A stretch of 64,000 bases of DNA, taken from the NCBI RefSeq assembly GCF_900107195.1, contig NZ_FNPB01000001.1, positions 558,001-622,000 of the forward strand, read 5' to 3'. Below, piece after piece: positions 4,240 to 62,831 of the stretch. Source of the DNA: Halobellus clavatus. GTDB lineage: Archaea; Halobacteriota; Halobacteria; Halobacteriales; Haloferacaceae. Each line of letters begins with the position of its first letter. Positions within the stretch are counted from its first letter, which is position 1. Made by a program: the position numbers and the translations under genes. The notes below the pieces were generated by a model, which was not told the DNA's origin, did not search any database, and saw only the letters and a list, made by a program, of their open reading frames with translations.

Positions 4240-4263
4240 CAAACTAAAGGAGGATTACAAACT

Positions 4264-9550: not shown

Positions 9551-9554
9551 TACT

Positions 9555-14130: not shown

Positions 14131-15104
14131 TGTTCAGCTTGGGTGATGTTTTCCTGCTCAATGCTGGGCAGCGACAGCAGGGCGGCGAGTTCGGGAACCG
14201 AAGTTTGGAAACTGTGGCTCCAGGATCCGAACTGTCGGTGGGCGACCGTTTTTGCGAAGTCGAGGACCCGCTGTTCCCGAAGTGATTTGACGGTGACTGT
14301 GTCGAGGTATTGGCCGGTGTCCGGGTTTTCGAAGGTGTTGTAGCCGCCGCTGAGTTCCTTCACCCGGCTCTGCGTGTATTCGTCTGCTCCGATAACCAGG
14401 AACCGGATACTGGTGTGGAAGCGGTTGGTTCCGGCCTTGTCTTCGATGGCGTCGGCCTGCCGTTTTTCCCGTGGGGTCGGGTTACGGCTGCCCCACAGCT
14501 TTTCTTTCTCTTTACGGAGGTAGCCGATTCTCTGGTATGCTCTCTTCCTCCAGTACCACCGACGCAGGGGTTTGCCGATGACGGGTTGGAACAGGATTTG
14601 TACGATGAACTTGGTGTCTCTCATCGCGTGCCTGTGCAGGCTGGAGACGACGGAGTTCACCGGCGGTTGTTTGAATTCGTGTTTCAGCGGGTACCAGTCT
14701 TTCCTGCCTGTGGTGAGGAGTCCTCCGCCGACTGTGTCTTCTGAGGCGACTGGGATTCCGTTGGTGCCTTCTTCGAACCGGATTCCTGGTATTTCGTTGG
14801 TGAGGTGTGTCCGTAGTTTCCGCTCTAGTCGGACTGTGGGTGTGGAGAACTGGAACTTGATTTTGTCTGGGTGGGTTCGCCGGATTTCGAAGGCGGCGAC
14901 TGGTGACGTGTTTAGGAGTCCGAAGTACTTGGACTGTAGCTCGGTGACGGCTCTCACCAGGTTTTCCGGGACTGCTGGAATGTCTCCGTTCCTTGGTGTC
15001 TTGACTTCGATGGTGTGGGACTGTACCGCGGGTTTCCGCAGGTGTTCTGCTTCCTCTTCGGAGGGTGTGGTTGTGTAGTACAGGAGGGGGTCAAGGAGGC
15101 TCAC
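14127..15104 (-). CDS. Conjugation-operon protein of unknown function
   Basis: A 325-aa soluble protein between the VirB4 and coupling-ATPase genes, overlapping both by 4 nt. It has a basic central stretch (about 195-245, WYWRKRAYQRIGYLRKEKEKL) and no membrane segment or signal peptide that I can see. I recognise no catalytic motif. The fixed position between the two T4SS ATPases suggests a structural or adaptor subunit that links them; this is inferred from context only. Confidence 0.7.
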   Translation of the reverse strand: MSLLDPLLYYTTTPSEEEAEHLRKPAVQSHTIEVKTPRNGDIPAVPENLVRAVTELQSKYFGLLNTSPVAAFEIRRTHPDKIKFQFSTPTVRLERKLRTHLTNEIPGIRFEEGTNGIPVASEDTVGGGLLTTGRKDWYPLKHEFKQPPVNSVVSSLHRHAMRDTKFIVQILFQPVIGKPLRRWYWRKRAYQRIGYLRKEKEKLWGSRNPTPREKRQADAIEDKAGTNRFHTSIRFLVIGADEYTQSRVKELSGGYNTFENPDTGQYLDTVTVKSLREQRVLDFAKTVAHRQFGSWSHSFQTSVPELAALLSLPSIEQENITQAEQ

Positions 15105-17260
15105 TGGTTTTCACCCTGGTTGATGATCTGGTGTTCGATGTCTGTGGATTCGATCTTGATTCGGGTGTCGAGTTTTCCGGAGATTTTCAGGAGTGCTTCG
15201 CTGTACTCGCTTTCTGTCCCGGTTTTGAGTTCGTGGAGTTCCTGTCGTTCCCGGTCGGAGAGTTGGAAGTATTCGACGACGTCGTCGGGCACCCGGTCGT
15301 GCCTCATAAACACTTTACACGGCATATTGTCGAGGATTTCACGGCCTTCTCGGCAGTAGGTGAAGTGGGAGGCGTTCTGACTGATTAGGGTGACTGCGGT
15401 GTTGGTATCTCGTCCTTCGAGGACGAACTGGTTCAGGACTTGTCGCCCGGTTTCGTGGTTCATCAGGATCCGGGCTTCGTCGATCAGGACCAGTGTTTTT
15501 CTCTGGTTTTTGCTGGTGTAGCTGTAGATGTCTTGTACCAGATCGACGAGTTCGTCGACGTCGTCTCTTTGGCCGCGTTCCTCGACTTGGAAGCAGAGGT
15601 GCTGGTCGTCGAGTTGTTCGAGGCTTTGTTTGTGTGGGAGGGTGATGCAGGTTCCGTCGAGGCTTTGAATGATTTCGTGGTACTCTTTTTTCGGGTCTAC
15701 TGCGATGATCTGAAGATCGTCGTAAACGAGGTCAGCACGCAGTAACTCGATTTTGGCGGCGTAGCTTTTGCCGGAGCCGACCATTCCCATCCGGGCCATT
15801 GAGTGAGACGGCCACTGGAATCGATCGGCGAGGATGGGTGCTTCGTCGCTGGTGTCTACGCCGTAGATGACACCGTTTCTTTGACCGGTTTGCTGTGTTC
15901 CGAAGGGGAAGCCTGCTGCTGCGGTGGTGGATGGTACTAACTGGGTTTCGTTCAGAGGGTCGGGGTACAGTGGCTGCTGTGTTTTGTAGGCTTGATCGGT
16001 TCTGAGGAATGTGTTCCCGTACTTGATTTGCTGGGTGTCTAACCTGTTTTTGATCTGTCTAAGTGTTTGCCGGCACTTGGTTTTGGATTTGCTGTGTGCT
16101 GTGATGTAGACGGCGTGGTCGACGGGTTGTGCTTTCCTGTCTGCGAACAGGTCGAGGATCCATTCCGTGTCTTCGAGCAGTGATTCGAGTTTGTTGGTTC
16201 CGCGGTAGCCGTGGCTGAGGAAGGAATCGATCTCGGCGTTCAGTTTCTCCGAGATGCGTTGCAGTTTCCTCGTTGCTTTACCTGTGTCTCTGGGTTCGAT
16301 GACCTGTGTTACGTCGATGAGGCCGTCGGTACGCAACAACTGTAGAGGCCAGCCCAGCTCGACGCTAGACGGGTATTCGGAGATGTACAGGGTTTTCCTG
16401 TACTGGTGGCTGGAGTTGTAGTCTTCTCTGCGTGAGTTCCAGGTCGGCGAGGTCTGCGGTCCTGTGTCTCCACCGATTATGACATTTCCCTCACTGAACC
16501 GGTGTACCTTGCTTTTCAGGCTTGATTCGGTGAGGCGTTCGGCCTGTAGATCTGCTGTGTTGAGTGTGGTGATGACTTCACGGCACCGGTTGTCCAGTTC
16601 GCTTCTACGGTTTTTCTTCCGTGAGTAGTTGTTGTACTGGAGTTTGTCGAGGAGCCAGTGACCGGTGTCTTTCTCCGATTTCAAGATGATGTAGTGTTTG
16701 GTCGTGGATTGCTCTTCCTCGGAGAGTGAATTGATGTATTGCGAGTAGTGCTCTCCTAGATCTGTGCCGGGAGAGCCTCTTTGCCAGATGTTTTCCTTGT
16801 AATTCCTCAGATTGCGGCTGCGCTGCTGTGAGTGGATGTGGATCGGGTAGGTGACGGTGTCCAGCAGGTCCTGATAGATGTTGTGGAGGGCTCCTTGCTC
16901 GGTGTCCGTCTTCATATCCAGGTTGGTCGGTGAGACCTGGATTACCGCTGCTATGGTGTCTCTATCTAGTCTGACGTACTCGTCTCTATGGGGTGCTACA
17001 CTCGGTGCTTTCAGTTGCCGCTTGTTGATGAACCAGCGTGGAGCGTGGTATGCGAGCTGGTCCAGGTGGTGGCCGAGCGGGGTCCACCGGTACCAGACTG
17101 CTCCCAGCACTAATGCCGAGGCCAGTACCGGTATCGGGGCGTTGGTGAAGTATGCGAGTGCTGCCGGCGTGAGGAGCCTGGTCAGATCTTTGACTGTGAA
17201 CTGGCCGAACAGTTTCGTGTCGACGTCGAGCCTGCCAGGTGCCTTGATTCTGAGACTCAT
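15101..17260 (-). CDS. VirB4/TrbE-like T4SS ATPase with PrgI-like N-terminus
   Basis: A 719-aa protein. Residues 20-65 hold two hydrophobic segments of the PrgI/VirB3 kind; the ATPase part has Walker A MVGSGKSYAAK (about 500) followed by IIAVDPKKEYHEI. Walker B is TLVLIDEARILM and the last motif TAVTLISQNASHF. VirB4 ATPases energise pilus assembly and substrate transfer at the cytoplasmic face of the membrane. Fusion of the VirB3-like anchor to VirB4 is known from other T4SSs. It overlaps the channel-protein gene upstream by one base. Confidence 0.87.
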   Translation of the reverse strand: MSLRIKAPGRLDVDTKLFGQFTVKDLTRLLTPAALAYFTNAPIPVLASALVLGAVWYRWTPLGHHLDQLAYHAPRWFINKRQLKAPSVAPHRDEYVRLDRDTIAAVIQVSPTNLDMKTDTEQGALHNIYQDLLDTVTYPIHIHSQQRSRNLRNYKENIWQRGSPGTDLGEHYSQYINSLSEEEQSTTKHYIILKSEKDTGHWLLDKLQYNNYSRKKNRRSELDNRCREVITTLNTADLQAERLTESSLKSKVHRFSEGNVIIGGDTGPQTSPTWNSRREDYNSSHQYRKTLYISEYPSSVELGWPLQLLRTDGLIDVTQVIEPRDTGKATRKLQRISEKLNAEIDSFLSHGYRGTNKLESLLEDTEWILDLFADRKAQPVDHAVYITAHSKSKTKCRQTLRQIKNRLDTQQIKYGNTFLRTDQAYKTQQPLYPDPLNETQLVPSTTAAAGFPFGTQQTGQRNGVIYGVDTSDEAPILADRFQWPSHSMARMGMVGSGKSYAAKIELLRADLVYDDLQIIAVDPKKEYHEIIQSLDGTCITLPHKQSLEQLDDQHLCFQVEERGQRDDVDELVDLVQDIYSYTSKNQRKTLVLIDEARILMNHETGRQVLNQFVLEGRDTNTAVTLISQNASHFTYCREGREILDNMPCKVFMRHDRVPDDVVEYFQLSDRERQELHELKTGTESEYSEALLKISGKLDTRIKIESTDIEHQIINQGENQ

Positions 17261-18339
17261 CAGTCATCACCCCAGTCGTAGCTGAATGACTTGCTGGATG
17301 AGGCGCGGCGTTTCCTTCTGCGTTCGCGCAGCCGGTTCTTTTGCTCCTCGTTGAGCAGTGAGTCCTGGTTTTCAGGGCTGGAGTTGATTCGTTGTTTCAC
17401 ACTGCTGGAGGCGGCGTAGGTCAGTCCGACTGCGGCCTGTGAAGCATCCCATACCTGCTTCGGCACCAGCAGCAGTAAGACGAGGGATGCGACTCCGAGC
17501 AGCCAGTTCGAGACTCCTTGGAGTACTGTAGATCCTGCTCCACTGGTCAGGGCGAAGGAGAACTTCAGTACGAGCATATCCAAAGGTGCGATCAGTAGTG
17601 CGGCGAACCACCCGGCGATAAACGTGTCACTGTATCTTTTCACGCGTGGCAGGCTCCACCCTAATGCGAGCAGTGGGGAGATCGCGGCGACGAACAGGAT
17701 GTAGACATCGCGGATGATGAACAGTACTGCAACCGCCAGCAACAGCAGTGACTGGAAGATGTAGGCCAGTACCAGGCCGGTGGTGATACCCCAGTTCTGC
17801 TGTATAGTTGTATCCAGGAAGTCGGGTTGGAACGCAATTGTCAGTGCGCGTGTGAAGTCCACTCCGAGCTGTAGTAGTGGAAGTGAGACTGCGGAGAATA
17901 CGAGTGCGATAATGACTCGTGGCAGGATTTTTCGGACCTGTCCGTAGGAGATTCCGAGGATTGGACCGATCATATGGAGTATTCCGGCGACGATGAACGC
18001 CAGTGAGGACAGTAGGAAGGTGACGAGGAGTACGTCGGTGTGGACTTCTTCGACCGCTGGGTTGGGATGGACGTCAGGTGTCGCTGTCAACAGCCGTGCG
18101 ATCAGTGATAGGAGTGCGCCGACCAAGTTGATGAACGGTTCAAACAGGATGCTGTGGAGAAGATCCTCCAGGTTTTCTTCCCAGTTCTCTGTGAACTCGG
18201 AGATTGCTTCCGTTAGTTCGGCAAGGATACCGGTCTGCTGTTCTTCCTCTGTTTCGTGATCCGCTGCCACCGGAGCAACGAACACGGTGCTGAGGGCCAG
18301 CAACGTCAACGCCGTGAAGACGAGTTTTCCACCTTTCAT
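17260..18339 (-). CDS. TrbL/VirB6-like polytopic membrane protein
   Basis: A 359-aa protein. It opens with a Sec signal-like sequence (LVFTALTLLALSTVFVAPVAA), then an acidic extracellular stretch, then about six to seven membrane segments between residues 60 and 320, and a basic cytoplasmic tail (RLRERRRKRRASS). This is the architecture of T4SS inner-membrane channel proteins TrbL/VirB6. It lies directly upstream of VirB4 in the transfer operon. The family call rests on topology and position rather than a motif. Confidence 0.75.
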   Translation of the reverse strand: MKGGKLVFTALTLLALSTVFVAPVAADHETEEEQQTGILAELTEAISEFTENWEENLEDLLHSILFEPFINLVGALLSLIARLLTATPDVHPNPAVEEVHTDVLLVTFLLSSLAFIVAGILHMIGPILGISYGQVRKILPRVIIALVFSAVSLPLLQLGVDFTRALTIAFQPDFLDTTIQQNWGITTGLVLAYIFQSLLLLAVAVLFIIRDVYILFVAAISPLLALGWSLPRVKRYSDTFIAGWFAALLIAPLDMLVLKFSFALTSGAGSTVLQGVSNWLLGVASLVLLLLVPKQVWDASQAAVGLTYAASSSVKQRINSSPENQDSLLNEEQKNRLRERRRKRRASSSKSFSYDWGDD

Positions 18340-21569: not shown

Positions 21570-22562
21570 ATTAAAGGCGAAACCTACGTTTTCGACGATT
21601 TAGACGAGCTTTACGAAACCGCAGAAATGCTTCCGGAGGTGGACCGGCACGACGTCTACGCCCATCACACCGGGGAGGATGACTGGGAGGATATTCCGTA
21701 CCGGGACAGTTTGTGGACTGACGATGGCAGAGCTACAGGAGTCGTTTCCAGTAGTGATGATTTCTACAACATCATTCAGTACGGGGATATCTTGGAGACG
21801 GTCGGTGATGCTGTCGACAGGCACGAGGATGTAGAACCTCGTGGTCGCGTATCTATTTCGCCCACGGCTCACAAGATGAGTGCGAACGTCGAGTTTGACG
21901 GGGCAACGGTGTACGCTTCCCAGGATGACCCTATCGACCTTGGTTTACAGGTTCAGAGCGGTCACTCAGGTTTTCACGGCTTGAAGTATGACGTGGGTGC
22001 TGAGCGCCAGGTATGTAGTAACGGGATGACCGCTTTCATCTCCGAACTTGGTTTTGATCAGACTCACGGGGAACCGTTCCAACCCGGCTTAGCGTACAAC
22101 GCTGTTGACGCTGTTATTGAGTCGCCGGCGGAGATTGAGCACCGGTTGGCGCAGGCGCAGAACCGGGAGTTGAGGAATCAGGATGAAGCCCTGCTGGTGT
22201 TGATGGATACTGGGATTGATCGGTACTTGGAGAACCCTGTTCCTGACTTGTTGAATGCGATGCACGACGAGGTGGAGGATACGGAGTCTCCGACGCTCTG
22301 GGAGACGTACAACACGGCTACACGTGCACTTACGCATTACACGCAGGATGTACCGGATTATGAACTGGCGCAAGGGTTCGAGCAGGCTTCACAGCTCTTG
22401 GAGACCGGCGGTAATGAGGTTCCGGAGCCTGATCGACTGGGTCGTTCAGCGGTCTACAGTCGGTCGCGTGACTTGATTGAGCAGGGTGATTCGGAGCCGT
22501 ACTGGCCTGATGAGGAAAACGCTCTTAGGGAGTTGATGGAGGAGCACGAGATTCAGGCATAG
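21570..22562 (+). CDS. DUF932-like protein (plasmid/phage family), apparent ATT start
   Basis: A 330-aa protein if read from ATT at 21570, 8 nt after a GGTG ribosome-binding site. The first in-frame ATG is 21627, without such a site, and would drop 19 residues. The segment SGHSGFHGLKYDVGAERQVCSNGM (in parts: NxH-like turn, then RQVCSNGM near residue 150) matches the hallmark of DUF932 proteins, found in phages and plasmids and of uncertain function. The rest is acidic and helical. It stands first in the 21.5-26.0 kb accessory cluster. A 17-nt repeat at 21496 lies upstream. Confidence 0.7.
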   Translation: MKGETYVFDDLDELYETAEMLPEVDRHDVYAHHTGEDDWEDIPYRDSLWTDDGRATGVVSSSDDFYNIIQYGDILETVGDAVDRHEDVEPRGRVSISPTAHKMSANVEFDGATVYASQDDPIDLGLQVQSGHSGFHGLKYDVGAERQVCSNGMTAFISELGFDQTHGEPFQPGLAYNAVDAVIESPAEIEHRLAQAQNRELRNQDEALLVLMDTGIDRYLENPVPDLLNAMHDEVEDTESPTLWETYNTATRALTHYTQDVPDYELAQGFEQASQLLETGGNEVPEPDRLGRSAVYSRSRDLIEQGDSEPYWPDEENALRELMEEHEIQA

Positions 22563-22641
22563 CCCTATTTTTTCTTTTTCTTCTCGCTACTGGATTACAC
22601 TAATAAAATTTTCTAGGTTTTGTTACTATAAGGTGAGTACT

Positions 22642-23177: not shown

Positions 23178-23276
23178 ATGACTACTGACACATCAGATAT
23201 GCGGGAAGGTTCCCCAGAAGCCAGTCAAAAATCCTCTAAATTGAGTACTCGGCCAGCGGTGACGTACAATTACTGA
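23178..23276 (+). CDS. 32-aa leader ORF overlapping the next gene
   Basis: ATG at 23178 opens 32 codons, rich in Ser and Thr, ending in TGA at 23274-23276. It runs across the ribosome-binding site of the following gene and stops 3 nt after that gene's proposed ATT codon. Two readings are possible: a leader whose translation couples to the next gene, or the true N-terminus of that gene separated from it by a +1 shift at TAC-TGA. I cannot decide between them from sequence. Confidence 0.35.
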   Translation: MTTDTSDMREGSPEASQKSSKLSTRPAVTYNY

Positions 23277-23604
23277 TTACGATGAGGAGGAGCCTATTGC
23301 GGAGTGGGAGGCCGCGTTTCTTCCGGACTGGGAGTGGGAGGCCTACGACAAGGTCGAGGGAGACGACGATGTCTACTTCGGCCGTGTCCGCTCCCCCAAC
23401 ACGTACGGGAAATGGGAGTATGGCTACTTCAGCCAGGAACAACTCGAAAAAGCCGGTGCCTACAGGACTGATCTAGATCCAGAGGAAGACGCACCCTTGT
23501 ATCCTGACGGTGGAGAAGTTGAGGACGTCGTTGGCTTGTTTGAAACTGAGTTAGAGGCGTTGCTTGAACCTGAGGAAGGTGATGAACGATACAAGGAAAG
23601 ATAG
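23269..23604 (+). CDS. Acidic hypothetical protein lacking any canonical start codon
   Basis: The open frame begins at 23263, just after a TGA, and no ATG, GTG or TTG occurs in it for over 80 codons, yet the product (about 111 aa, rich in Asp, Glu, Trp and Tyr) is clearly coding-like. ATT at 23269 lies 7 nt after GCGGTG, the same spacing other genes here use. So either an AUU start, or a +1 frameshift from the 32-aa leader, or a recent lesion. No family recognised. Its TAG stop overlaps the next gene's proposed ATA as ATAG. Confidence 0.6.
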   Translation: MTDYDEEEPIAEWEAAFLPDWEWEAYDKVEGDDDVYFGRVRSPNTYGKWEYGYFSQEQLEKAGAYRTDLDPEEDAPLYPDGGEVEDVVGLFETELEALLEPEEGDERYKER

Positions 23605-24047
23605 ACGAGCTGCTTGAAGAGTATACGAGGGAGAAACAGTACGTGGAAGAGGAGAAGCCGTACTGGATGAATCTTACCGGCGGCACCTCCTTCTCCGGTC
23701 CTCTACGGTTCGAGTTGGAGAATTACTTCCCCGAGGCGCACTACAAAGACGCGATTGATCAGGCTTTCCAGGACAAAGCCGAGGAAGAAGTCTTGCCGGA
23801 CGGTGGCAGCATGACACAGTACTACTGGAGTGGAGACGAAGGGGTTGTGTACCATACCGAGGCTGGAGATGAATTGGTTGATCCCTTCTTTGGCTCAGTA
23901 GAGGAGGCTGAGCAGTATCTTGAGAACCTAGCTGACCTTCACGGAAAGGAACAATACTCAGGGATGGTGCTGCGGAAATCAGGGAACAGGAAAGTCGAAG
24001 AGGCGACCGAGGTCTTGACTGAGCAGTCCGGCTTGACCGAGTGGTGA
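23601..24047 (+). CDS. Hypothetical protein, related to the one at 25620-26015
   Basis: Read from ATA 23601 it is 148 aa; from the first canonical start, GTG 23643, it is 134 aa. The body is acidic and aromatic. A motif ENYFPEAHY near residue 43-51 resembles NDYFPHFHY in the 131-aa protein at 25620, both followed by an Ala/Asp-rich helix, so the two may be distant paralogues. The frame is open across the ATAG overlap with the preceding gene, which favours coupled translation. No function assigned. Confidence 0.6.
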   Translation: MDELLEEYTREKQYVEEEKPYWMNLTGGTSFSGPLRFELENYFPEAHYKDAIDQAFQDKAEEEVLPDGGSMTQYYWSGDEGVVYHTEAGDELVDPFFGSVEEAEQYLENLADLHGKEQYSGMVLRKSGNRKVEEATEVLTEQSGLTEW

Positions 24048-24057: not shown

Positions 24058-24096
24058 ATGAAACGAGAAATGCACAGAAGAGGTGATCAGTTATAG
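24058..24096 (+). CDS. 12-aa leader ORF before the GHKL protein
   Basis: ATG AAA CGA ... TTA TAG encodes a basic 12-residue peptide (MKREMHRRGDQL). It spans the AGAGGTGATC ribosome-binding site, and its TAG overlaps the proposed ATA start of the next gene as ATAG. The geometry suits termination-reinitiation, but ORFs this short arise by chance. Confidence 0.25.
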   Translation: MKREMHRRGDQL

Positions 24097-25595
24097 AAGA
24101 GGATGTCTTCGGTGTTGATGTTGAGGGATGGGTTGAGCAGAACCGGAGTCGTGACCTGTATGAGCTGGTGCGTGAGCCAATTCAGAATGCGTTGGATACC
24201 GAATCCGATCTTGACGTACAGGTTGATTACGGTGACCGAAGTATTGTCGTCGAGGATTACGACCCTGAAGGTGTAGAAGATCTTTCCCGGTTCTACGACC
24301 TGTTTTCCGGCAGCAAACAGCATGATCCTGAGAAGCGCGGTCGTTTCGGCCGTGGTGTGAAGGAGTTTATCGGTGCGACCGATGAAACTGTAATCTCGTC
24401 GACGGGAGGAGGTCTTAGATTCAGTTTTGACACTGTATACGATGAAGTCCTGGATGAGTATCAGGTCGAGTCTTCACGTGAGATGTTACCCGGTGTGGAG
24501 AGGGAGCGCGGTACGATGGTCTACGGTTCGAACTCGGACTGGACACAACAGGATCTGGAGCAGGTTGAGGATTTTATCAGCGATCTCTGGATGCCTCGTG
24601 ATCGCGAGTTACGATTGGAGACTTTCAGGCCCTACAGTGAGAAGGTGATGACGGGTGAGGAGCCGGACGCTACTTTGGAAAATCAGTACTTGCCAACGAT
24701 AGTTTTTGATGAAGGTGTTCAAAAGGAGAAGCACCGTAGTACACCGGTTGAGGTGAACAAGACCGAGCCTGGAGAGGGCGGTATCTATGAATTGGGTATT
24801 CCGGTTACGCGTGGTGAGGAGTTCCCGTTCCTGTTTAATGTGCATCAGAAGACCCCAGTTACGGAGAGGAGAAACGAACTAGATAACAGTTATAGAAGTG
24901 ATTTGATGCGGTCCTTGCTTGATAACCGTCTCGACCTCCTAGACGACGAAGAACTAGAGGAAGAGTACGTCACCCAGTATATCTCCCAGTTCAGCCACAA
25001 AACCAGTGAGGACACCCAGCAAGAGTATATCTCCCGCAGGTTCGGTACTGACCCCGATGATCTACTGGTGTACAGTGATTCGACGCCGGATATGGCGGTT
25101 ACGTGGGCCACTCAACACCAACTGCCGATGGAAAAGTTGAACGAGTACAGCCGAAACATCAGTGGAATACTTGACAGCCAGTGTCCATCGGTTCAGGAAT
25201 GGTTCAACGAGCAAAACAGCGATAGATCAATCGAGCCGGTCGAAACGCCGGAAGAGAATCAAGAAGATCTGATACAGTTCTTTGAAGAAGAGATTTTGGG
25301 ACGTACCAGTGCCGGCGACGTCGACTTTGAGTTAGCGTACATCAGTGAGGACTCTGATGAAGGCCAGACACACGCAACGTACAGCCCGGTGGAAGAGACA
25401 ATTTATTTGAATGCGTTGGCGGATGACTGGAGTTCTCCGACACCGCGTAGGATCGGCACCGCTCTACACGAAATCGGACACCACGAAACAGATCCGAACA
25501 GGGACGGGCACGGACCCCGCTGGTACCACGCAGTCGAAGAACTCAGCGGCGAAGTAATCCAAAATCTAGAACAAGAACTCGAAGACTTCGAGTAA
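24093..25595 (+). CDS. GHKL (Hsp90-like) ATPase fused to a HEXXH metallopeptidase domain
   Basis: About 500 aa from ATA 24093, 7 nt after AGAGGTG. The first canonical start (GTG 24168) would cut into the ATPase N-box helix. N-box: LVREPIQNALD with N32; G1-like: VVEDYDPEG (52-60); G2-like: GRFGRGVKEF (83-92), giving a GHKL fold of the MutL/Hsp90/MORC class. The C-terminus has HEIGHH (459-464) and DGHGPRWY about ten residues later, the zinc-ligand pattern of SprT/WLM-type proteases. The middle (about 150-400) is unassigned. An ATP-gated protease is a reasonable guess. Neighbours on both sides are the paralogous YFP-motif proteins. Confidence 0.75.
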   Translation: MEEDVFGVDVEGWVEQNRSRDLYELVREPIQNALDTESDLDVQVDYGDRSIVVEDYDPEGVEDLSRFYDLFSGSKQHDPEKRGRFGRGVKEFIGATDETVISSTGGGLRFSFDTVYDEVLDEYQVESSREMLPGVERERGTMVYGSNSDWTQQDLEQVEDFISDLWMPRDRELRLETFRPYSEKVMTGEEPDATLENQYLPTIVFDEGVQKEKHRSTPVEVNKTEPGEGGIYELGIPVTRGEEFPFLFNVHQKTPVTERRNELDNSYRSDLMRSLLDNRLDLLDDEELEEEYVTQYISQFSHKTSEDTQQEYISRRFGTDPDDLLVYSDSTPDMAVTWATQHQLPMEKLNEYSRNISGILDSQCPSVQEWFNEQNSDRSIEPVETPEENQEDLIQFFEEEILGRTSAGDVDFELAYISEDSDEGQTHATYSPVEETIYLNALADDWSSPTPRRIGTALHEIGHHETDPNRDGHGPRWYHAVEELSGEVIQNLEQELEDFE

Positions 25596-25619: not shown

Positions 25620-26015
25620 ATAGAGAGTTTGGAAGATGAGTTCGGTAGGTCGCTGGGGCATCAGGTCCGAGATCAAATTGTGAGAGAATATGAATTAGAT
25701 GAAAGAGACCACGTCCTCGAAGAAGAGTACATTTCGGATGTTTCACATCAAGACGGAGACGTTCCTTACCGAATGCAGATCAGCTACGAGGACGGAGGCC
25801 CCAGCTACTTCGTCAACGATTACTTCCCGCATTTCCACTACCAGGCCTCGGCAGCCCTAGCAGACGAAGACTACGACCTACTGATTGAATACTGGGGAAC
25901 CAGAGACACCGATCTGGGAGACCTAGAAACCGAATCACAGGCCTTAGAAAAGCTGAGAGAAGATGGAGCTGCCAACAATATCTCTGAGCTTGGTTTGGAT
26001 TATGGTGGTATCTAG
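25620..26015 (+). CDS. Hypothetical protein with YFPxFHY motif
   Basis: About 131 aa from ATA 25620, or 133 aa from GTG 25614. GGTGGTG lies just upstream. The NDYFPHFHY motif near residue 66-74 and the acidic tail resemble the 148-aa protein upstream of the GHKL gene. Separated by 24 nt from the GHKL-protease stop, so probably the same transcript. Function unknown. Confidence 0.6.
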   Translation: MESLEDEFGRSLGHQVRDQIVREYELDERDHVLEEEYISDVSHQDGDVPYRMQISYEDGGPSYFVNDYFPHFHYQASAALADEDYDLLIEYWGTRDTDLGDLETESQALEKLREDGAANNISELGLDYGGI

Positions 26016-26097: not shown

Positions 26098-26637
26098 ATG
26101 TATGTAGTAAGTACGATGGGCAGCGGGGATCTCGGCCGTGAGCTAGACTTAGACGCTGTTATCGAATCCTTGGAAAACGAGTTTGATATTGAATCGAACC
26201 AGCACAGCGGTTCTATGGTTACTATCCGCTTAGAATCTGAGGGACCCGCTCTTACCCTCTACCGGACAGGAACATACCAGATCCGGGGAACTGACAGTAG
26301 AGAAGCGCTGTTCGAAGCTAATGAAGATCTTTTAGATGCTCTTCGCTCAGTTGGTGTGGAATTCTCTGAACCAGATTTTGAACAAAATAACGCAGTCTTC
26401 CTTGAGGATTTTGAGACCAATATTCAATTAGAGACACTCTCATTACATCTCGGTTTGGAGAATGTAGAGTACGAGCCAGAACAGTTCCCTGGCGTCATCT
26501 ACAGGCCACCGGAAATTGGCACCGTTAATCTGATTTTTTCCAGCGGCAAGACGATCATCAGCGGGACAGTACAGAATGAGGTCGCTGAACAATCTTCTGA
26601 ACACCTGCGAAAACAGCTTTCCACCCTTCCCACCTAA
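26098..26637 (+). CDS. tbp: Divergent TATA-binding protein (TBP), copy 1
   Basis: A 179-aa two-repeat TBP. Repeat 2 keeps the family core: EYEPEQFPGVIYR and LIFSSGKTIISG (about 120-150). Repeat 1 keeps STMGSGDLGRELDLDAVI, but the usual YEPEQFPGLVYR stretch is replaced by an unrelated-looking segment ending in TLYRTGTYQIRG. Archaeal TBPs bind TATA boxes with TFB; haloarchaea often have several with different targets. The degenerate first repeat suggests altered DNA preference (inference). It stands immediately upstream of the type I restriction operon, in the same orientation, 71 nt away. Confidence 0.9.
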   Translation: MYVVSTMGSGDLGRELDLDAVIESLENEFDIESNQHSGSMVTIRLESEGPALTLYRTGTYQIRGTDSREALFEANEDLLDALRSVGVEFSEPDFEQNNAVFLEDFETNIQLETLSLHLGLENVEYEPEQFPGVIYRPPEIGTVNLIFSSGKTIISGTVQNEVAEQSSEHLRKQLSTLPT

Positions 26638-26708: not shown

Positions 26709-28289
26709 ATGGCGATAGCGGGAGACTCTAACGGCGAACTTGAAAAGAAACTCTGGGAAACTGCTGAAAAACTACGGGGGCCAGTTGACCCCTCCGAATA
26801 CAAAGACTTCGCACTAGGCCTACTATTCTTGAAGAGTATGTCTGACTCTTTCGAGGCCCGAAGAGAAGAACTTGAGGAGAAAACACGAGACGAAGACTCC
26901 CGATACTATACAGAAGACGAGAAAGAACGCGAATACATACTAACTGATAAAGACGAGTACAAGAGTGAAAACGTATTCTACCTCCCTGAAGATGCCCGCT
27001 GGCAGTATTTTGTCGACAACGCAACTGATCCACAAATCGGTAAGAAAATCGATGATGCGATGCGAGCCATCGAAGAGGAAAACCCGCGACTCAAAGGAAT
27101 TCTCCCGAAAGGATATTCCCGCTCATCTCTTTCAGATAATTCTTCTGACGCACTCGAAGGCCTGATCAACCTCTTCGCTGATCTGGAGATGGAAGCAGGT
27201 AACGGAGACGGCGACGAGGACATCTTCGGCCGAATCTATGAATACTTCATTAAGCAGTTCGCGATGGAAGGAGGCCAGAAAGGAGGAGAATTCTACACAC
27301 CAAAGAGCGTCGTCGAGCTTATGGTGGAAGTTCTGGAACCTTATGAAGGCCGTATCTTCGACCCATTCAGCGGCTCCGGCGGAATGTTCGTCCAGAGCCA
27401 GAAATTTATAGAAAGCCACGGCGGCGATACCGACAAAATCTCGATCTACGGTCAGGAGATCAAGGAAAGCACCCTCCAAATCTCCAAGATGAACCTCTAC
27501 CTTCGAGGCCTCGATGGCAATATCAAACAGGGTGATAGCATCCTCAACGACCAGCACAAAGGCCTCGAAGCAGACTACGTCATCACTAATCCTCCTTTCA
27601 ACATGAGCGAATGGGGGAAAGATTCGATAGCGGATGACGACCCTCGCTTTAGATATGGTCTAGCACCGTCTAATAATGCGAATTACGCCTTCATCCAGCA
27701 CATGATAAGTCATCTCGGAAATGATGGCATGGCTGCTACAGTTATGGCAAATGGCGCAATGTCAGTTCAGAGTAAAGAGGGTGAAATTAGGCAAAGCATC
27801 ATCGAAGATGACTTGCTTGACGCTGTTATCGCGCTTCCCAAGGAACTGTTCTTCACAACAAGCATCCCAGCTTGTATTTTTATTTTGAGTAAAGGGAAAG
27901 ACTCAGACAAGTACCGTGATAGAGGCGGTGAAACACTGTTTGTAGATGCCAGAGAAGAATACGAAAGTATAAATCGGACACAAAACACCCTTACCGAAGA
28001 CAATATCAATAGAATCGTTGAGAAGGTTAGAGCCTACCGAGGAGAAGATGGAGTAGACGAATACGAGGATGAGACAGGATTCTGTAAGGTAGCTGAAATC
28101 GAAGATATTGCAGACAATCGTCATATAATTACGCCTGGCAGATATGTCGGAATAAAAGAAAAAGAAGGCGACGACGAGCCATTCGAGGTCAAAATGGAGA
28201 GGCTCTCCGCTGATCTCAGAGAAAACTTTCAGAAGTCCAACGAACTACAAGATCAGATTGAGAAAAATTTGGAGGTGCTAGGATTTTGA
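26709..28289 (+). CDS. hsdM: Type I restriction-modification DNA methyltransferase HsdM
   Basis: A 526-aa N6-adenine methyltransferase. The N-terminal helical domain (LWETAEKLRGPVDPSEYKDF) is the HsdM_N type. SAM motif I is FDPFSGSGGMF (about 217-227); catalytic motif IV is NPPF (about 296-299). It modifies the recognition sequence as M2S with HsdS and is part of the HsdR2M2S endonuclease. Length is normal. The stop overlaps the HsdS start by 4 nt. An AACTTGGT sequence at 26646, like the core of the 17-nt repeat, lies upstream. Confidence 0.96.
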   Translation: MAIAGDSNGELEKKLWETAEKLRGPVDPSEYKDFALGLLFLKSMSDSFEARREELEEKTRDEDSRYYTEDEKEREYILTDKDEYKSENVFYLPEDARWQYFVDNATDPQIGKKIDDAMRAIEEENPRLKGILPKGYSRSSLSDNSSDALEGLINLFADLEMEAGNGDGDEDIFGRIYEYFIKQFAMEGGQKGGEFYTPKSVVELMVEVLEPYEGRIFDPFSGSGGMFVQSQKFIESHGGDTDKISIYGQEIKESTLQISKMNLYLRGLDGNIKQGDSILNDQHKGLEADYVITNPPFNMSEWGKDSIADDDPRFRYGLAPSNNANYAFIQHMISHLGNDGMAATVMANGAMSVQSKEGEIRQSIIEDDLLDAVIALPKELFFTTSIPACIFILSKGKDSDKYRDRGGETLFVDAREEYESINRTQNTLTEDNINRIVEKVRAYRGEDGVDEYEDETGFCKVAEIEDIADNRHIITPGRYVGIKEKEGDDEPFEVKMERLSADLRENFQKSNELQDQIEKNLEVLGF

Positions 28290-29554
28290 CCAAAAAGCAG
28301 CGCAAACTGGAAGGCTTAGAAAAAAAGAGTCAAGAGCGTAGAGAATGGCAAACGAAGAAGTTAGAGGAGGTAGCTCACATCAACTTAGGTCAGTCTCCAA
28401 AAGGTGAGTATTATAACGAGGAGGGAGACGGTCCACACTTTATACAGGGGAGTAAAAATTTTGGTGACAAATATCCAGAACTTGAGCGGTTCTGCTCAGA
28501 GCCAAAAAGGGAGGCTGACGAAGGAGATGTATTAATTAGCGTCCGTGCACCAGTGGGTCCAGTCAACATTGCTCCTGAAAAACTCTGTATAGGTAGGGGC
28601 GTGACTGCTCTCACATTAAACGGAGGTTCAAATGAATATCTGTTTTACTTTTTAAAGTATTTTGAAAATAAATGGTCGCAGTTTGCCGATGGAACAACCT
28701 TCAATTCAATCACAAAATCTGATCTACAGAACTTAGAACTTCCTTATCCTCCGACAAATGAGCGAAACAAGATTGCGTTCATATTAAGAAAATTGGATGA
28801 AAAAATAGAGAATAACAATAAAATTAATGAAATTTTGGAGGAGTTAGTTCAGACTCTATTCAAATCTAGGTTCGTTGATTATGAACCCTATGAGCAATTC
28901 AAAGATGCGGAGATCGGCGAAATTCCAGAGGATTTTGAGCTTCTTCAAATAGGGGATGTCTGCAGTACTAGGGGTGGGGGTACTCCGAGCACAGACAATG
29001 ATGAGTACTGGAATGGCGACAATCTATGGTTGACACCTAAGGAGGTTACTTCACTTGATTCGAAGATCGTGTTCGATACGGAGAGGAAGGTTAGTGATGA
29101 GGGTCTAAACAATAGTTCTACGGCAATTATGCCAGAAAAGTCAGTACTTCTTACAAGTAGAGCTACTGTTGGAGAAGTAGTTGTTAACCGGGAACCAATG
29201 GGTACTAACCAGGGATTCATTTGTATTCAGCCAAATGATAGGGTAGAACCGTATTATCTTGCTTGTCTTGTTGAAAATAAGCGGCCTGAAATAGAGAATC
29301 GAGCTAGTGGCAGCACATATGATGAAATAAGCCAGACTTCATTTAATGGAATCCAAGTTGCGATTCCTCCGAAAGAAGATATTGAAGAATTCGAAGACAA
29401 AGTAGAGGAGATCTATGAGGATATATACACTAGGGAGCTTGAAAACCGTCGTTTGGAGGAATTACGCGATACTCTGCTTCCGAAGCTGATGTCGGGTGAG
29501 ATCAGGGTTAATGATATAGAGTTGGATGAGTTAGAGGTTGATAGTGAGGTTTGA
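28286..29554 (+). CDS. hsdS: Type I restriction-modification specificity subunit HsdS
   Basis: A 422-aa protein with two target-recognition domains (about 25-190 and 215-405), each followed by a conserved helix (NKIAFILRKLDEKIENN and LENRRLEELRDTLLPKLMSGEI). It decides which bipartite DNA site is methylated or cut. Start TTG at 28286 has GGAGGTG 8 nt upstream; it has an extra charged N-terminal helix of about 25 residues. The first TRD is unusually AT-rich compared with neighbours, consistent with domain exchange. Confidence 0.94.
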   Translation: MTKKQRKLEGLEKKSQERREWQTKKLEEVAHINLGQSPKGEYYNEEGDGPHFIQGSKNFGDKYPELERFCSEPKREADEGDVLISVRAPVGPVNIAPEKLCIGRGVTALTLNGGSNEYLFYFLKYFENKWSQFADGTTFNSITKSDLQNLELPYPPTNERNKIAFILRKLDEKIENNNKINEILEELVQTLFKSRFVDYEPYEQFKDAEIGEIPEDFELLQIGDVCSTRGGGTPSTDNDEYWNGDNLWLTPKEVTSLDSKIVFDTERKVSDEGLNNSSTAIMPEKSVLLTSRATVGEVVVNREPMGTNQGFICIQPNDRVEPYYLACLVENKRPEIENRASGSTYDEISQTSFNGIQVAIPPKEDIEEFEDKVEEIYEDIYTRELENRRLEELRDTLLPKLMSGEIRVNDIELDELEVDSEV

Positions 29555-29560
29555 TCTGTT

Positions 29561-32551
29561 ATGTCTATGAATGAGATGGAGTTGTCGGAGAGGCCGGCTC
29601 TACAGGCTTTTCAGGACATTGGGTATTCTTACAAGCATGGTTCTGAGCTTGGGCCGAACAGTGAGGATCCGGAGCGTGAGTCTCTTTCTGATGTGGTTTT
29701 GCGTGGCCGTCTTGAGCAGAAGCTACGTGAATTTAATCCGTCGATGCCGGATGAGGCGATTGAGGATGCGATCTCGCAGCTTCTTGGCTATAATTCTACC
29801 CGGCTACTGAAGAATAACAAGAATTTCCATGAGAGCCTAGTTAATGGTATCCGGGTAGAATACGAAGTAAACGGAGAACCCAGAGGAGATTTTGTTGATG
29901 TGTTTAATTTTGATGAGCCGAGGCAGAATGATTTCTTAGTTGTTAATCAGTTCCGGGTGCAGATAGGCGATGGGCCTGAGAGAAGGCCTGATGTGGTTGT
30001 GTTTGTGAATGGGCTTCCGATTGGGGTCTTGGAGATGAAAGATCCGACGAATCCGCAGGCCTCGATGGGTAATGCGTATAAGCAGGTCACAGATCGGTAT
30101 GTAAACGATATTACTGAACTGTTCCACTATAATGAGTTGATCGGGATTTTGGATATGAATAATGCCCGTCTTGGCTGTCTCTCTGCGGGTTGGGAGTGGT
30201 TCTCTCCTTGGCGGTATATTGATGAGGAGAAGGATGCAACCGGTGAGTTACCGCCGTCCGAAGTCTTGATTAGAGGTGCTTTTGACAAGGAACGGGTCTT
30301 GGATTTAATCAAGAATTTTGTGGTGTACTCTGATTCGGACGGGAAGTTGAGTAAGAAGCTGGGAGCTTATCACCAGTTTTACGCGGTGAATAGCGCGGTT
30401 GACAGCAGTAAGGACGTCGTCCCGGATCCTGATCAGAGCCGTATCGGGTTGGTATGGCATACCCAGGGTTCGGGTAAGTCTCTGTCTATGGTTTTCTATG
30501 CGAAGAAGATCAAGCAAGAGAGTTCGATGAAGAATCCGACTCTTGTTTTCTTGACTGATCGGAATGATCTTGATGATCAGTTGTATACTGAGTTTAGGAA
30601 ACACGGTTTGGACGCTGAGTGGGCGGACAGCGATAACAGGGTTGAGCTCCGTGATCGGTTGGATCGTGAATCAGGAGGCATTATTTTTGCGACGATTCAG
30701 AAGTTCCAGACTACGGATGATGAGGTTCAGTATCCGGAGGTCAATGACCGCGATAACGTGATTGTGGTTGCTGATGAGGCTCATAGAACCCAGTACAGTA
30801 CTTTAGCGGAGAATGTGCGAGATGGCCTGCCGAATGCCTCGCATCTTGGGTTTACTGCTACTCCGATTCAGAAGGAGGATCGGTCGACGATCAATACCTT
30901 TGGTGGATACGTCAGCCAGTATACGATCAAAGAGTCTGAAAAGGATGGTTCTACGGTCCCGATCTACTATGAGAGCCGGTTAGCGAAGCTTCAGGTAAAC
31001 GATCCTGAGATTGAGGATCGGTTTAATGAGTTGATGGACTCAAAGTCTGATGATTTGAAGCAGGAGATGAAGAGGAAGTGGACTCAGCTTCGCCGTGTCA
31101 TTGAGAACAGTGAGGAACGGACGGAGATGATAGCAGATGATGTTGTAGAACACTTCAATAATAGAGAGATTGAGGGTAAGGGAATGGTGGTTGCGATCAG
31201 CCGCCAGGCAGCGGTGAACCTGAGCCGGAAGATTAGAGATAATCCGGATGCGCCGGAAACCCGAGTAGTGATTTCAGGTCAAGAGGACTTCATAGATGAT
31301 CCTATCTCAAACGAGAAACTGAAGAGGAGGTTCAAAGATCCCGACGATTCCTTCGATATTGCGGTTGTCTGTGATAAGTGGTTGACTGGTTTTGATGCCC
31401 CGCATCTACACACTCTGTATGTGGATAAGCCGATGAAGAATCATAATCTGCTTCAGGCTATTGGCAGGGTCAACCGGGTTTACAAGGATAAGCCGGGAGG
31501 ACTCGTTGTTGATTATATTGGTATAAGCGAGAGACTGAAGGAAGCTTTGGATAAGTATACTTCTGAGATCCGGGAAGATGCTATGCTGGATATTGAGGAA
31601 GCAGTGAAGGTGATGAAAGAGAAGCATCAGGAGGTCGCTGACTTCTTTTCTGAGGTTGATTACAGTGATTGGCCTCAGTTGGATCAGATGGATAGGCAGC
31701 GTCTGTTGTACAAGGCACAGAATGAGGTATTAATTACTGAGAAGCGGGAAGAAGACTTTAGAGAGTCAATGAAGGGCTTGAAGAAGGCACATTCGTTAGT
31801 GTCTCCGAACAGCGCTGCTAGTGAGATCAGGGCTGATTTGGCGTTTTTCGAAGCGGTACTTGGTGCGATCAACAGTATCGATAAGTCGGGTAATCCTGAT
31901 GAGGTGGAGGAGTTGGATTCTGCGATGAAAGAGTTAGTCGCAGAGGGTGTCGGTATTGAAGATCTGGTTGAGGTAACTGGTTTCGATAAGTGGGAGAAGG
32001 AGAAACCGGTGTTGAGTGATGAGTTTTTGCAGGATGTAGAGGAAGTTGAGTTTGAGAATTTGCAGGTGAAGATGCTTCGGCAGTTGCTGGAGAATGAGAT
32101 ATCGACTAGGAAGAAAGGTAATCTGGCGAAATATGAGTCGTTTGAGGAGGAGCTTGAGGAGACTATAGATCAGTATAATGAGGGGTTCTTATCGACCCAG
32201 CAGGTTATTGACGAGCTTCGTGATTATGCTGATGAGATTCAGGAGTCGGATGATCGGCAGGATGAGCTTGAATTGAGTGATGAGGAGTTAGCGTTCTTTG
32301 ATGCAATTTCTTCGAATACGGATACGGAGATTGAGGAGGAGAAATTAAAGACTATTGCTCAGGAGCTGAAGCAGAATCTGAAGGATAGAGTTGAGTTGGA
32401 CTGGACTAATCGTGATAAGATTCGTGCGGAAATTAAGACTGAGGTAAAGGCTGTTTTGCGGAATAATGGTCTCAGCTTGTACAAGCATGAGGACCTAGTA
32501 GAGCCTATAGTGGCTCAGGCAGAAGCTTTCTATGGGGGAGCTGCGGCCTAA
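29561..32551 (+). CDS. hsdR: Type I restriction endonuclease subunit HsdR
   Basis: A 996-aa protein of normal length. The N-terminal nuclease domain has RPDVVVFVNGLPIGVLEMKDP in parts: PD at about 143-144 and ExK at 157-159. Helicase motif I is TQGSGKSLSM; motif II is DEAH; motif III is GFTATP; motif VI is QAIGRVNRVY. It translocates DNA and cuts away from unmethylated sites with HsdM and HsdS. All key residues are present and the frame is intact, so the system looks functional. Confidence 0.96.
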   Translation: MSMNEMELSERPALQAFQDIGYSYKHGSELGPNSEDPERESLSDVVLRGRLEQKLREFNPSMPDEAIEDAISQLLGYNSTRLLKNNKNFHESLVNGIRVEYEVNGEPRGDFVDVFNFDEPRQNDFLVVNQFRVQIGDGPERRPDVVVFVNGLPIGVLEMKDPTNPQASMGNAYKQVTDRYVNDITELFHYNELIGILDMNNARLGCLSAGWEWFSPWRYIDEEKDATGELPPSEVLIRGAFDKERVLDLIKNFVVYSDSDGKLSKKLGAYHQFYAVNSAVDSSKDVVPDPDQSRIGLVWHTQGSGKSLSMVFYAKKIKQESSMKNPTLVFLTDRNDLDDQLYTEFRKHGLDAEWADSDNRVELRDRLDRESGGIIFATIQKFQTTDDEVQYPEVNDRDNVIVVADEAHRTQYSTLAENVRDGLPNASHLGFTATPIQKEDRSTINTFGGYVSQYTIKESEKDGSTVPIYYESRLAKLQVNDPEIEDRFNELMDSKSDDLKQEMKRKWTQLRRVIENSEERTEMIADDVVEHFNNREIEGKGMVVAISRQAAVNLSRKIRDNPDAPETRVVISGQEDFIDDPISNEKLKRRFKDPDDSFDIAVVCDKWLTGFDAPHLHTLYVDKPMKNHNLLQAIGRVNRVYKDKPGGLVVDYIGISERLKEALDKYTSEIREDAMLDIEEAVKVMKEKHQEVADFFSEVDYSDWPQLDQMDRQRLLYKAQNEVLITEKREEDFRESMKGLKKAHSLVSPNSAASEIRADLAFFEAVLGAINSIDKSGNPDEVEELDSAMKELVAEGVGIEDLVEVTGFDKWEKEKPVLSDEFLQDVEEVEFENLQVKMLRQLLENEISTRKKGNLAKYESFEEELEETIDQYNEGFLSTQQVIDELRDYADEIQESDDRQDELELSDEELAFFDAISSNTDTEIEEEKLKTIAQELKQNLKDRVELDWTNRDKIRAEIKTEVKAVLRNNGLSLYKHEDLVEPIVAQAEAFYGGAAA

Positions 32552-33152: not shown

Positions 33153-35141
33153 GTGAATCGAGACGGGAAGGGTCTTCTAGATCTGGCGAAGCGCAGCGAT
33201 ATATTGAATAACGAGGAAGTACAGAAACTGGTCTTAGCGTCTGGCCTATCCAGTAATGAGCATCTCCAAGATACGGTTTCAAAAGCTGTTCTGGGTAAAT
33301 CAGTTGGGCAGTATCGTTACCCGTTCGAGAAGAGCACGAGGTACGGTGATATCTATCTGGGAGAGACGTTCCGGAACCAGTCTTTCTATCTCTCTCAGGA
33401 GGAATTAACGAAGCACCTCTTGACGGTTGGTCAGTCGGGTTCGGGGAAGACGACGTTGTTCTACAGTTTGATGTGGAGGGTCGATAAGCCGTTCTGGGCT
33501 TTTGATTTGAAGCAGGATTACCGGCATCTTGCCCAGGATACTGATTTGCTGGTGTTGCCGTGGACGAAGCTGAAGTTCAATCCGTTGAAGCCGCCGGAAG
33601 GAGTTCCGCCGAGGAGGTGGGCCCAGGTTTTCGCGGAGATCTACGGCCACGCTACCTCTCTGTTGAGTGGTTCGAAGAATTACTTGATGAAGAAGATTGT
33701 CGAACTCTATACGCTGTACAATTTGTTTGACAAGGTTTCGGAGCCGTATCCGAGTCTTCACGAGTTGGAGCTTTTGATCAAGAAGCAGAAGGTGAACTTT
33801 GTTCGGAAGGCGTCGGATTACCGCGATACTCTCCTAAACCGGTTGGAGGCGATGAACCTGATAGCAGGCACGGTCTTCGACTGTAGCGTTGGTTATCCGG
33901 TAGAGGAGTTGCTTGACCAGGATGTTGTCTTTGAGTTTGACGGTCTTTCTCACGACGTCCAGAACTTCTTGATGGAGATTCTTTTTGCGTACGTCTACGA
34001 GTACCGTATGGCGCAGAATCACCGGGATGAGGGTTTGAATCACTTGTTTTTCCTGGATGAGGGTAAGCGTGTTTTCAGTGTGTATAAGGAGCGGCAGGAT
34101 GCGGCTGGTATTCCCGAAGTTGATGAGTTGACGGCGAAGATGCGGGAGTTTGGTGAAGGTCTCGTCGTTGCAGATCAGGAAGCTTCCAAATTGACGGATT
34201 CGATTAAGGCGAATACTCATACCAAGCTTCTATTGCCTACGGCTGACCGGAAGCAGTTTCAAGCGGTGACGGATGCGATGAACCTGTCTGAGAGGCAGGC
34301 GAAGTTCGCACACGACCTTGTTACGGGAGAAGCAGTTGTCCAGGTCGGAAGCCGTGACCCAGTCCCGGTCAAACTCGAAAACTACGAACTAAAGAAGACG
34401 GTCACGAACAGAGAACTGGAAAAACAGCAGGCGGAGAAGTGGAGTGAGCTAAGCAGTGAGAGGCGGAAGACCACGAAGCGTTTCGACGACAGGATAGCAC
34501 CCGGACGTTCCGAAGAGGTACCGGAGACCTCGATCCCTGATGATCCAACCGAGATACAGGTCTCGAAGGACGCCGACCGATTACTGAAGGATGTCATCAA
34601 GAACCCGTTCAAGCCTCTGACTGAGCGGTACGAGCGTTTCAGTAGTACGTACAAGGGAAACAAGGCGAAGAACGAACTCGTCGACGACGGCGTCGTCATA
34701 GAACGCCACGTCAAGGGTCAGGATGGCAAGCGAAAGCTGCTCCAGTTGACTGAGAAGGGCCGTGATTACGCGGAAGGTATAGATCTGGAAGTGAAACACA
34801 GGGGGCGAGGCGGGATCATCCACAGGTACTGGCAACACCAAATCAAGGAAGCATTCGAAAGACAGGGTTGGGATGCGTTCCTCGAAAAGTTCGACGCCGA
34901 CGTCTACATTAACATGGGAAACACAGAGTTAGTAGTCGAAGTAGCGATGGGTGACAACCCAAGAGAAATCGAGCACGTCCAGCAGCACCTGGAGAAAGGA
35001 TTCGACGCAGTCTGGGTAGCAGGCCGGAACCAGGAAGTACTGGATGGATTGAAGCAGAGGATAGAGGGAGAAGGGTTAGACCTGGATCGAGTGGCGTTTA
35101 GATTGGTTCGGGAGTTTAGAGAATTAGAGAATAGTTTTTAA
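33153..35141 (+). CDS. HerA/VirB4-like ATPase with C-terminal winged helix and nuclease-like domain
   Basis: A 662-aa protein. Walker A is TVGQSGSGKTT (91-101); Walker B LFFLDEGKRVFS lies near 290; VVADQEASKL follows. This is the T4SS/HerA superfamily. A winged helix spans about 480-545 (LVDDGVVIERHVKGQDGKRKLL). The last 110 residues (HRYWQHQIKEAFERQGWD, then DVYINMGNTELVVEVAMG) look like a restriction-endonuclease fold with D...ExA in place of ExK. The GTG start overlaps the stop of a 7-codon upstream ORF (33133-33156). Could be a second mobilisation ATPase or a defence protein; I cannot choose. Confidence 0.7.
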   Translation: MNRDGKGLLDLAKRSDILNNEEVQKLVLASGLSSNEHLQDTVSKAVLGKSVGQYRYPFEKSTRYGDIYLGETFRNQSFYLSQEELTKHLLTVGQSGSGKTTLFYSLMWRVDKPFWAFDLKQDYRHLAQDTDLLVLPWTKLKFNPLKPPEGVPPRRWAQVFAEIYGHATSLLSGSKNYLMKKIVELYTLYNLFDKVSEPYPSLHELELLIKKQKVNFVRKASDYRDTLLNRLEAMNLIAGTVFDCSVGYPVEELLDQDVVFEFDGLSHDVQNFLMEILFAYVYEYRMAQNHRDEGLNHLFFLDEGKRVFSVYKERQDAAGIPEVDELTAKMREFGEGLVVADQEASKLTDSIKANTHTKLLLPTADRKQFQAVTDAMNLSERQAKFAHDLVTGEAVVQVGSRDPVPVKLENYELKKTVTNRELEKQQAEKWSELSSERRKTTKRFDDRIAPGRSEEVPETSIPDDPTEIQVSKDADRLLKDVIKNPFKPLTERYERFSSTYKGNKAKNELVDDGVVIERHVKGQDGKRKLLQLTEKGRDYAEGIDLEVKHRGRGGIIHRYWQHQIKEAFERQGWDAFLEKFDADVYINMGNTELVVEVAMGDNPREIEHVQQHLEKGFDAVWVAGRNQEVLDGLKQRIEGEGLDLDRVAFRLVREFRELENSF

Positions 35142-37138: not shown

Positions 37139-37582
37139 CCCGATACAACCTTGTTGAGAAGAATCTATGAGCAGGATCTGGTTAAATTCTACCTGTCCAT
37201 AACCCCCGAGTTCCGATGACAAACAGGACAGATTATTTAAATATTCTAGACCAATTTTCAGATGAAAACCCAAACGAAGCGAGGAGAGCAAAGGAAACAA
37301 ACGAAAGCCACGAGCAAACTAAGAACGAGACATTAAATCGTTTGTCAGATGCTCCACCCGCCCACTGTAACAACCGTATAGTGGGCTAGAACCGAAATGA
37401 GGCCTTCTAAGGCCAAGAGAAACGCTCTCAATTCAAGAGAAGTAGACACTGAACGAAAGATAACATTCTCGCTGGGAACACTATATCCGATTTCGGTTGG
37501 AGCATTGAACCCATTGGAACTGTGGTCTCTCCCCATCTCCTCCAAGGTTTGGGTCGAACCAGATTAGGTGAACCACCAAACT
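37139..37582. other. Intergenic region before the integrase, with two hairpins
   Basis: No convincing gene in 444 nt. Two inverted repeats stand out: CCCACT (37361-37366) with AGTGGG (37380-37385), and GGCCTT-CT-AAGGCC (37401-37414). AT-rich segments at 37228-37245 could be promoters. These hairpins may be regulatory or recombinase accessory sites for the integrase. Confidence 0.45.
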
Positions 37583-62823: not shown

Positions 62824-62831
62824 ACGCCGAC

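Follow-up and report, generated by a model that had tools for sequence, protein, structure and literature searches.

The ATPases GyrB, TopoVI-B and MutL are dimers that are closed by ATP and act on DNA. With Hsp90, they have in common an N-box, the G1 and G2 motifs of GHKL ATPases and a transducer domain carrying a Q-K pair. Wss1 and SPRTN, of the WLM and SprT families, are eukaryotic DNA-protein crosslink proteases with a minigluzincin fold and an HExxH...H site, which bear targeting modules. GHKL domains are also found joined to other effectors: in the defence protein VcSduA (Shedu), the N-terminal GHKL domain has been put forward as the controlling part of a C-terminal nuclease (PMC12137116), which is of the PD-(D/E)xK type (DUF4263). 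Phages carry GHKL ATPases of their own in the form of the T4 rIIA-type proteins, which have another C-terminal part, and the C-terminal region of rIIA has been described as highly variable (PMC7824862).

Here, a stretch of 64,000 nucleotides from the haloarchaeon Halobellus clavatus (the window) was analysed, in which one gene encodes a GHKL ATPase-transducer followed by a Wss1-like zinc protease (Table 1). Relative to Wss1 and SPRTN, the targeting modules are replaced by the ATPase-transducer. Relative to GyrB, TopoVI-B, MutL and Hsp90, there is no Toprim, endonuclease or Hsp90 C-terminal domain, and the zinc protease stands instead. The C-terminal domain is a predicted zincin where VcSduA has its nuclease and, compared to the rIIA-type proteins, which are among the viral fold matches, the protein is shorter and ends in a conserved HExxH protease. 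Both halves are well known; their combination is new. The ATPase-protease itself matches no Pfam family, none of Pfam, NCBIfam, PHROGs and PADLOC has a model of the fusion, and a sequence search of the PDB with the single protein as query returned no match. A literature search found no paper describing the fusion; its coverage was incomplete, so that an earlier description may exist.

Table 1. Features of the window, in nucleotides counted from its first position.
Feature	Position	Strand	Details
Conjugation-type backbone: coupling protein, VirB4-like ATPase, membrane protein	12211..18339	-	Pfam TraG-D_C, TrwB_AAD_bind, AAA_10; synteny
DUF932 protein, backbone	21570..22562	+	start ATT; Pfam DUF932 E 5e-6 on shorter frame; synteny
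Gene A, 111 aa, backbone	23269..23604	+	start codon ATT
Gene B, 152 aa, YFPEAHY, backbone	23589..24047	+	start codon ATA
Shine-Dalgarno GAGGTGA	24080..24086	+	6 nt before ATA; conserved in G187 and G375
GHKL ATPase-Wss1-like protease gene	24093..25595	+	500 aa, start codon ATA; open frame
GHKL ATP-binding domain, residues 1-150	24093..24542	+	structure comparison; N-box, G1, G2
Transducer (S5-like) domain, residues 151-291	24543..24965	+	GyrB/TopoVI-B/MutL matches over 1-291; conservation
Helical linker, residues 292-376	24966..25220	+	DSSP of AlphaFold2 model
Wss1-like zinc protease domain, residues 377-500	25221..25592	+	separate model; abylysin and Wss1 profile matches
HEIGH motif (H459, E460, H463)	25467..25481	+	invariant in 69 members
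Predicted third zinc ligand, H473	25509..25511	+	invariant in 69 members
Gene D, YFPHFHY	25620..26015	+	start ATA; in-frame GTG at 25614
TATA-binding protein (TBP), first of two	26098..26637	+	Pfam TBP E 2.5e-28
Type I restriction-modification HsdM, HsdS, HsdR	26709..32551	+	PADLOC
HerA/FtsK-like ATPase bounding cargo slot	33153..35141	+	PADLOC mad8/HerA matches; synteny
Tyrosine integrase of element	37568..38824	+	Pfam Phage_integrase E 7e-12; synteny in three sister elements

The original prediction placed a GHKL ATPase and an HExxH protease in one protein of 500 residues, and this is borne out, including the numbering of N32 and H459. The frame is continuous from stop to stop (24087-25595), with 500 residues counted from 24093; the motifs are conserved; and both folds are predicted at high confidence by AlphaFold2 (mean pLDDT 90.6 and pTM 0.78 for the full protein; pLDDT 86.2 for the protease domain modelled separately).

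Structure comparison of the model shows a Bergerat fold and transducer in residues 1-291, which match GyrB (Z 16.6), TRAP1 (16.4), TopoVI-B (15.5) and MutL (15.2), as well as TopoIV. The N-box is formed by the catalytic E28, present in 67 of 69 aligned members, and by N32 and D35, present in all. G1 (D55..G60) and G2 (R82-G83-R84-F85-x-x-G88-x-K90) are conserved in the same set, and the transducer contributes an invariant Q252 and a near-invariant K253. The three motifs are as first proposed. As the scores of the GyrB, TopoVI-B, MutL and Hsp90 folds are nearly tied, the accompanying label of an Hsp90/MORC-type ATPase is too specific. Profile comparison matched sacsin-like and MutL models and none specific to MORC; a sacsin-type domain (NCBIfam) is matched by 55 of 56 members and HATPase_c_3 by 43 of 56. 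Outside the haloarchaea, conserved basic charge is weak, with +1.5 per 100 residues for the GHKL domain and -4.3 for the transducer, and speaks neither for nor against DNA binding.

The closest structural match of the C-terminal domain is Wss1 (5xbv; Z 9.4, 2.6 Å over 105 residues), followed by S. pombe Wss1 (8.4), selecase (8.0), abylysin (7.9) and SPRTN (7.0). Consequently, of the SprT/WLM-like assignment made originally, the WLM side fits best and SPRTN ranks lower. Foldseek gives this domain weak E-values (0.03 at best), but abylysin, Wss1p and S. pombe Wss1 are recovered independently by a sequence profile. In the model, HEIGHH and H473 are consistent with the zinc site of Wss1 and the minigluzincins by fold and by sequence. 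Most non-haloarchaeal members have the spacing of Wss1 itself, HExxH-x5-H, and the haloarchaeal copies have a short insertion ahead of H473. As the domain encoded in the window falls below the Pfam cut-offs of both WLM (PF08325) and SprT-like (PF10263), it is called Wss1-like and is not filed as a member of either; the WLM model is matched by 17 of the 69 family members (best E 0.0011).

Conservation of these motifs lies far above chance. Eighteen residues are invariant in the 69 aligned members: N32, D35, D55, G60, R82, G83, G88, K90, F110 and G140 in the ATP-binding domain and E233, G235, Q252, R260, H459, E460, H463 and H473 thereafter. A C-terminal HExxH with the third histidine is present in 108 of 112 intact relatives, whose mean length is 502 residues, and a random tail of 90 residues would be expected to hold about 0.003 HExxH motifs. 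The zinc site is degenerate, with HExxH lost, in two intact viral members (L008 and L025). Between the four haloarchaeal copies dN/dS is 0.05-0.13; the gene is therefore under purifying selection. That both sets of catalytic residues are kept argues that both activities matter.

The fusion is widespread, as a search outside this genome showed. A scan of viral contigs with the first alignment recovered 166 relatives (the single protein as query found none there), and 36 were recovered from genomes taken at one per species, with cellular hosts among the Planctomycetota, Verrucomicrobiota, Pseudomonadota, Chloroflexota, Acidobacteriota, Actinomycetota, DPANN archaea and others. In annotated collections, the closest non-haloarchaeal matches are on Rhodovastum, Bosea and Picosynechococcus plasmids and in a 485-kb uncultured phage record; these proteins have 483-518 residues and all have the HExxH region at the end. 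Viral contigs with a family member reach 416 kb. Terminase_6C or Portal_T4 was matched in 9 of 31 viral contigs tested and so at least these nine are tailed phages. A further candidate hallmark, phrog_2, was dropped because it was also matched in 11 of 14 control genomes. The tree does not separate viral from cellular members: its well-supported branches force at least 8 to 9 changes of label, a pattern that a gene passing between mobile elements would be expected to produce. A very long branch leads to the haloarchaeal clade, whose pairing with one member, L007, may be an artefact. In sum, the fusion proteins make up a conserved family without a name, most of whose members come from viruses and from the mobile DNA of bacteria and archaea.

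Clustering of neighbours and tallies of Pfam and PHROG families revealed no general partner of the family; in 14 of 116 loci, DUF932 is present at a distance of several kb or less. Among the viral neighbours are several replication or nucleotide genes, none of them seen more than once, and since neighbour families recur only once or twice, the context names no pathway. On the Picosynechococcus plasmids, a gene for a DisA-type diadenylate cyclase directly precedes the homologue (L003:5384-5893 and L006:5385-5894), which is followed by a CHAT-domain gene. On a Phycisphaerae contig, a second, different protein, GHKL-type as judged by eye, is encoded about 1.6 kb from the family member (L123:5017-6357).

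The ATPase-protease of the window is carried as cargo by a conjugation-type integrative element of haloarchaea, the architecture of which was derived by comparing 13 haloarchaeal loci. On one strand, the common element encodes a coupling protein, a VirB4-like ATPase and membrane proteins; on the other, it encodes DUF932 and genes A and B. Gene B is followed by a variable slot, after which some elements continue with a HerA/FtsK-like gene and an integrase. In three loci, the ATPase-protease directly follows gene B, each time with gene D; in two of these (the window and G187), the TBP gene and Type I restriction-modification are also present. The fourth copy (G363) lies elsewhere on the same contig as the element and is followed after 67 nt by a gene for a GIY-YIG and AlbA_2/Schlafen-type protein, identified by eye (L119:7344-8705). 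Sister slots hold Type I restriction-modification, DNA methyltransferases, PIN/AbrB-like toxin-antitoxin-like genes or Druantia/DISARM-like large helicases, the methyltransferase and PIN/AbrB calls having been read by eye from the sequence. One such slot encodes large proteins, of which one matches the Druantia DruE, DpdJ and DISARM DrmA models (L193:9622-17927). Two TBP-like genes (26098-26637 and 32560-33105) flank the Type I operon of the window, and several sister elements have a TBP gene beside restriction-modification. A gene for 141 residues between DUF932 and gene A (22633-23058) is present only in the window element among those compared and looks like an insertion.

The two neighbours of the ATPase-protease were said to share a YFPxxHY motif and were proposed as its possible regulators or substrates. 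The motif is present in both, and genes B and D are weakly similar (BLASTP E = 2e-4). The proposed role is weakened for gene B, which belongs to the backbone, is also found where the ATPase-protease is absent and is the commoner gene, being present in 21 of 391 genomes of the class compared to 4 for the full-length ATPase-protease; it is therefore no dedicated partner. Gene D accompanies the ATPase-protease in three of four loci.

What could such a protein do? The tentatively preferred answer, put at somewhat under an even chance and favoured over a defence effector, is an ATP-gated protease that acts on DNA-associated proteins and benefits the mobile element, either by clearance or by counter-defence. 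Here, the GHKL-transducer module most likely dimerises on ATP binding, closing in the manner of GyrB, TopoVI-B, MutL or Hsp90, with the Wss1-like protease hung on the transducer by the helical linker. Closure of this putative clamp round DNA or nucleoprotein would bring the protease onto a protein held there, and ATP hydrolysis would reset the clamp. The likely task would be to clear the DNA of the carrier virus or mobile element of proteins that are attached to it or block it. In one variant, these are DNA-protein crosslinks or roadblocks; in the other, a DNA-bound host defence or silencing protein is destroyed. DNA as the docking site is suggested by analogy, because of the company the folds keep: GyrB, TopoVI-B and MutL for one half, Wss1 and SPRTN for the other. 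Against this reading stand the haloarchaeal slot, which otherwise holds defence genes, the weak basic charge and the loss of HExxH in the two viral members.

If the clamp does gate the protease, ATP-driven topological clamps would be tied to proteolysis on DNA, and the family would offer a tractable prokaryotic system in which crosslinked or immune proteins are taken off DNA under the control of ATP. A broader and more doubtful extension is that the family constitutes a class of clamp-loaded, ATP-driven proteases, borne by mobile elements, that take proteins off DNA and are thus the ATP-gated equivalent of Wss1 and SPRTN. As part of the same reading, and with the same rather low expectation, phages and conjugation-type elements would use these proteases against roadblocks or DNA-bound immune proteins.

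The defence effector of the original prediction is the alternative that survives best, and is nevertheless rather unlikely. In this scheme, the GHKL clamp serves as the sensor of a phage protein or of invading nucleic acid and frees the protease to cut a phage or an essential host protein. The haloarchaeal context fits it, as the cargo slot is the one in which the sister elements have their restriction-modification, methyltransferase, PIN/AbrB-like and Druantia/DISARM-like genes. Outside the haloarchaea, a SIR2-HerA defence pair lies near the homologue on the Rhodovastum plasmid, the DisA-type cyclase gene precedes those of Picosynechococcus, and VcSduA sets a precedent for a GHKL ATPase acting against phage with a different effector, a nuclease (PMC12137116). 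However, the majority of relatives found sit on viral contigs, several with tailed-phage hallmark genes, no partner is conserved, and PADLOC returned no meaningful match, only 72 residues aligned to TmtA (E 0.003). Presence in phages fits defence less well, yet phages also bear genes against competitors.

Less probable again, and quite unlikely overall, is an Hsp90-like chaperone-protease that matures or quality-controls proteins of the virus or element. Hsp90s lead the PDB matches of Foldseek, TRAP1 reaching its Z of 16.4 via the N-middle part, and the other proteases and chaperones of large phages are thought to serve maturation (PMC7824862). Nevertheless, the protease stands where Hsp90 has its C-terminal dimer domain, full-length Hsp90 alignments have an rmsd of about 12 Å, the gene is also present on plasmids and a conjugation-type element, and the neighbour scans show no bias to virion genes. 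A regulatory protease, either repressor-cleaving or an IrrE-type stress switch with the GHKL domain as sensor, is very improbable, for while IrrE is a weak Foldseek match of the C-terminal domain and gene D of the haloarchaeal operon could be a substrate or partner, the fold match to Wss1 is much better and no linked regulator is conserved across the family.

A separate feature of the element is the use of isoleucine codons (AUH) as apparent starts. The frame of the ATPase-protease contains no ATG, GTG or TTG until 24168, which is already within the N-box, so that, reading from the sequence, the ATA at 24093 is almost certainly the true start. Three haloarchaeal copies have no standard start ahead of the N-box and share an arrangement of GAGGTGA or GGAGGTGA, six bases and ATA; the fourth copy (G363) starts with GTG. 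The same TGA-NNN-NNN-ATA occurs in two further genomes, and a sequencing error or frameshift at the 5' end was rejected on these grounds. The apparent starts of the five genes from DUF932 to gene D are, in order, ATT, ATT, ATA, ATA and ATA (21570, 23269, 23589, 24093 and 25620), each 6-8 nt after GGTGA or a similar Shine-Dalgarno sequence. A frameshift from the GTG overlapping the Shine-Dalgarno sequence was also rejected, because the homologues of gene A, and likewise those of DUF932, differ in the frame of the GTG-to-ATH distance.

Homologues were compared at L117, L118 and L192-L201. DUF932 starts with ATT (8) or ATC (4) in all 12 loci, gene A with ATT in 9 of 12 and gene B with ATA, ATC or ATT in 13 of 13, two of the last having standard starts farther upstream in frame. 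As the start-calling script takes AUH codons as candidates, single assignments lean to AUH. Independent of this is the absence of standard starts in the DUF932 loci: none is present from the upstream stop to the AUH codon, and the next lies 10-57 codons inside. By comparison, 400 kb of contig counted as host chromosome contained one comparable arrangement. The GGTGA-N6-ATA motif alone occurs twice in the window against 0.95 expected, which is not significant, and the case therefore rests on conservation and not on the motif count. Selection seems to keep AUH over AUG, perhaps because translation would thereby be held low or coupled to initiation fidelity. If confirmed, AUH starts would be an unusual instance of selected non-AUG initiation across an archaeal mobile-element family.

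Two further observations concern the rest of the window. At 1951-11819, a gene with a Piwi domain (Argonaute-like) heads a row of Mre11-like, Rad50-like, NurA and HerA genes. At the other end (46000-64000), there is a rise in G+C near 47 kb, from about 50% to about 65%, a sign that the low-GC element region may have its edge here.
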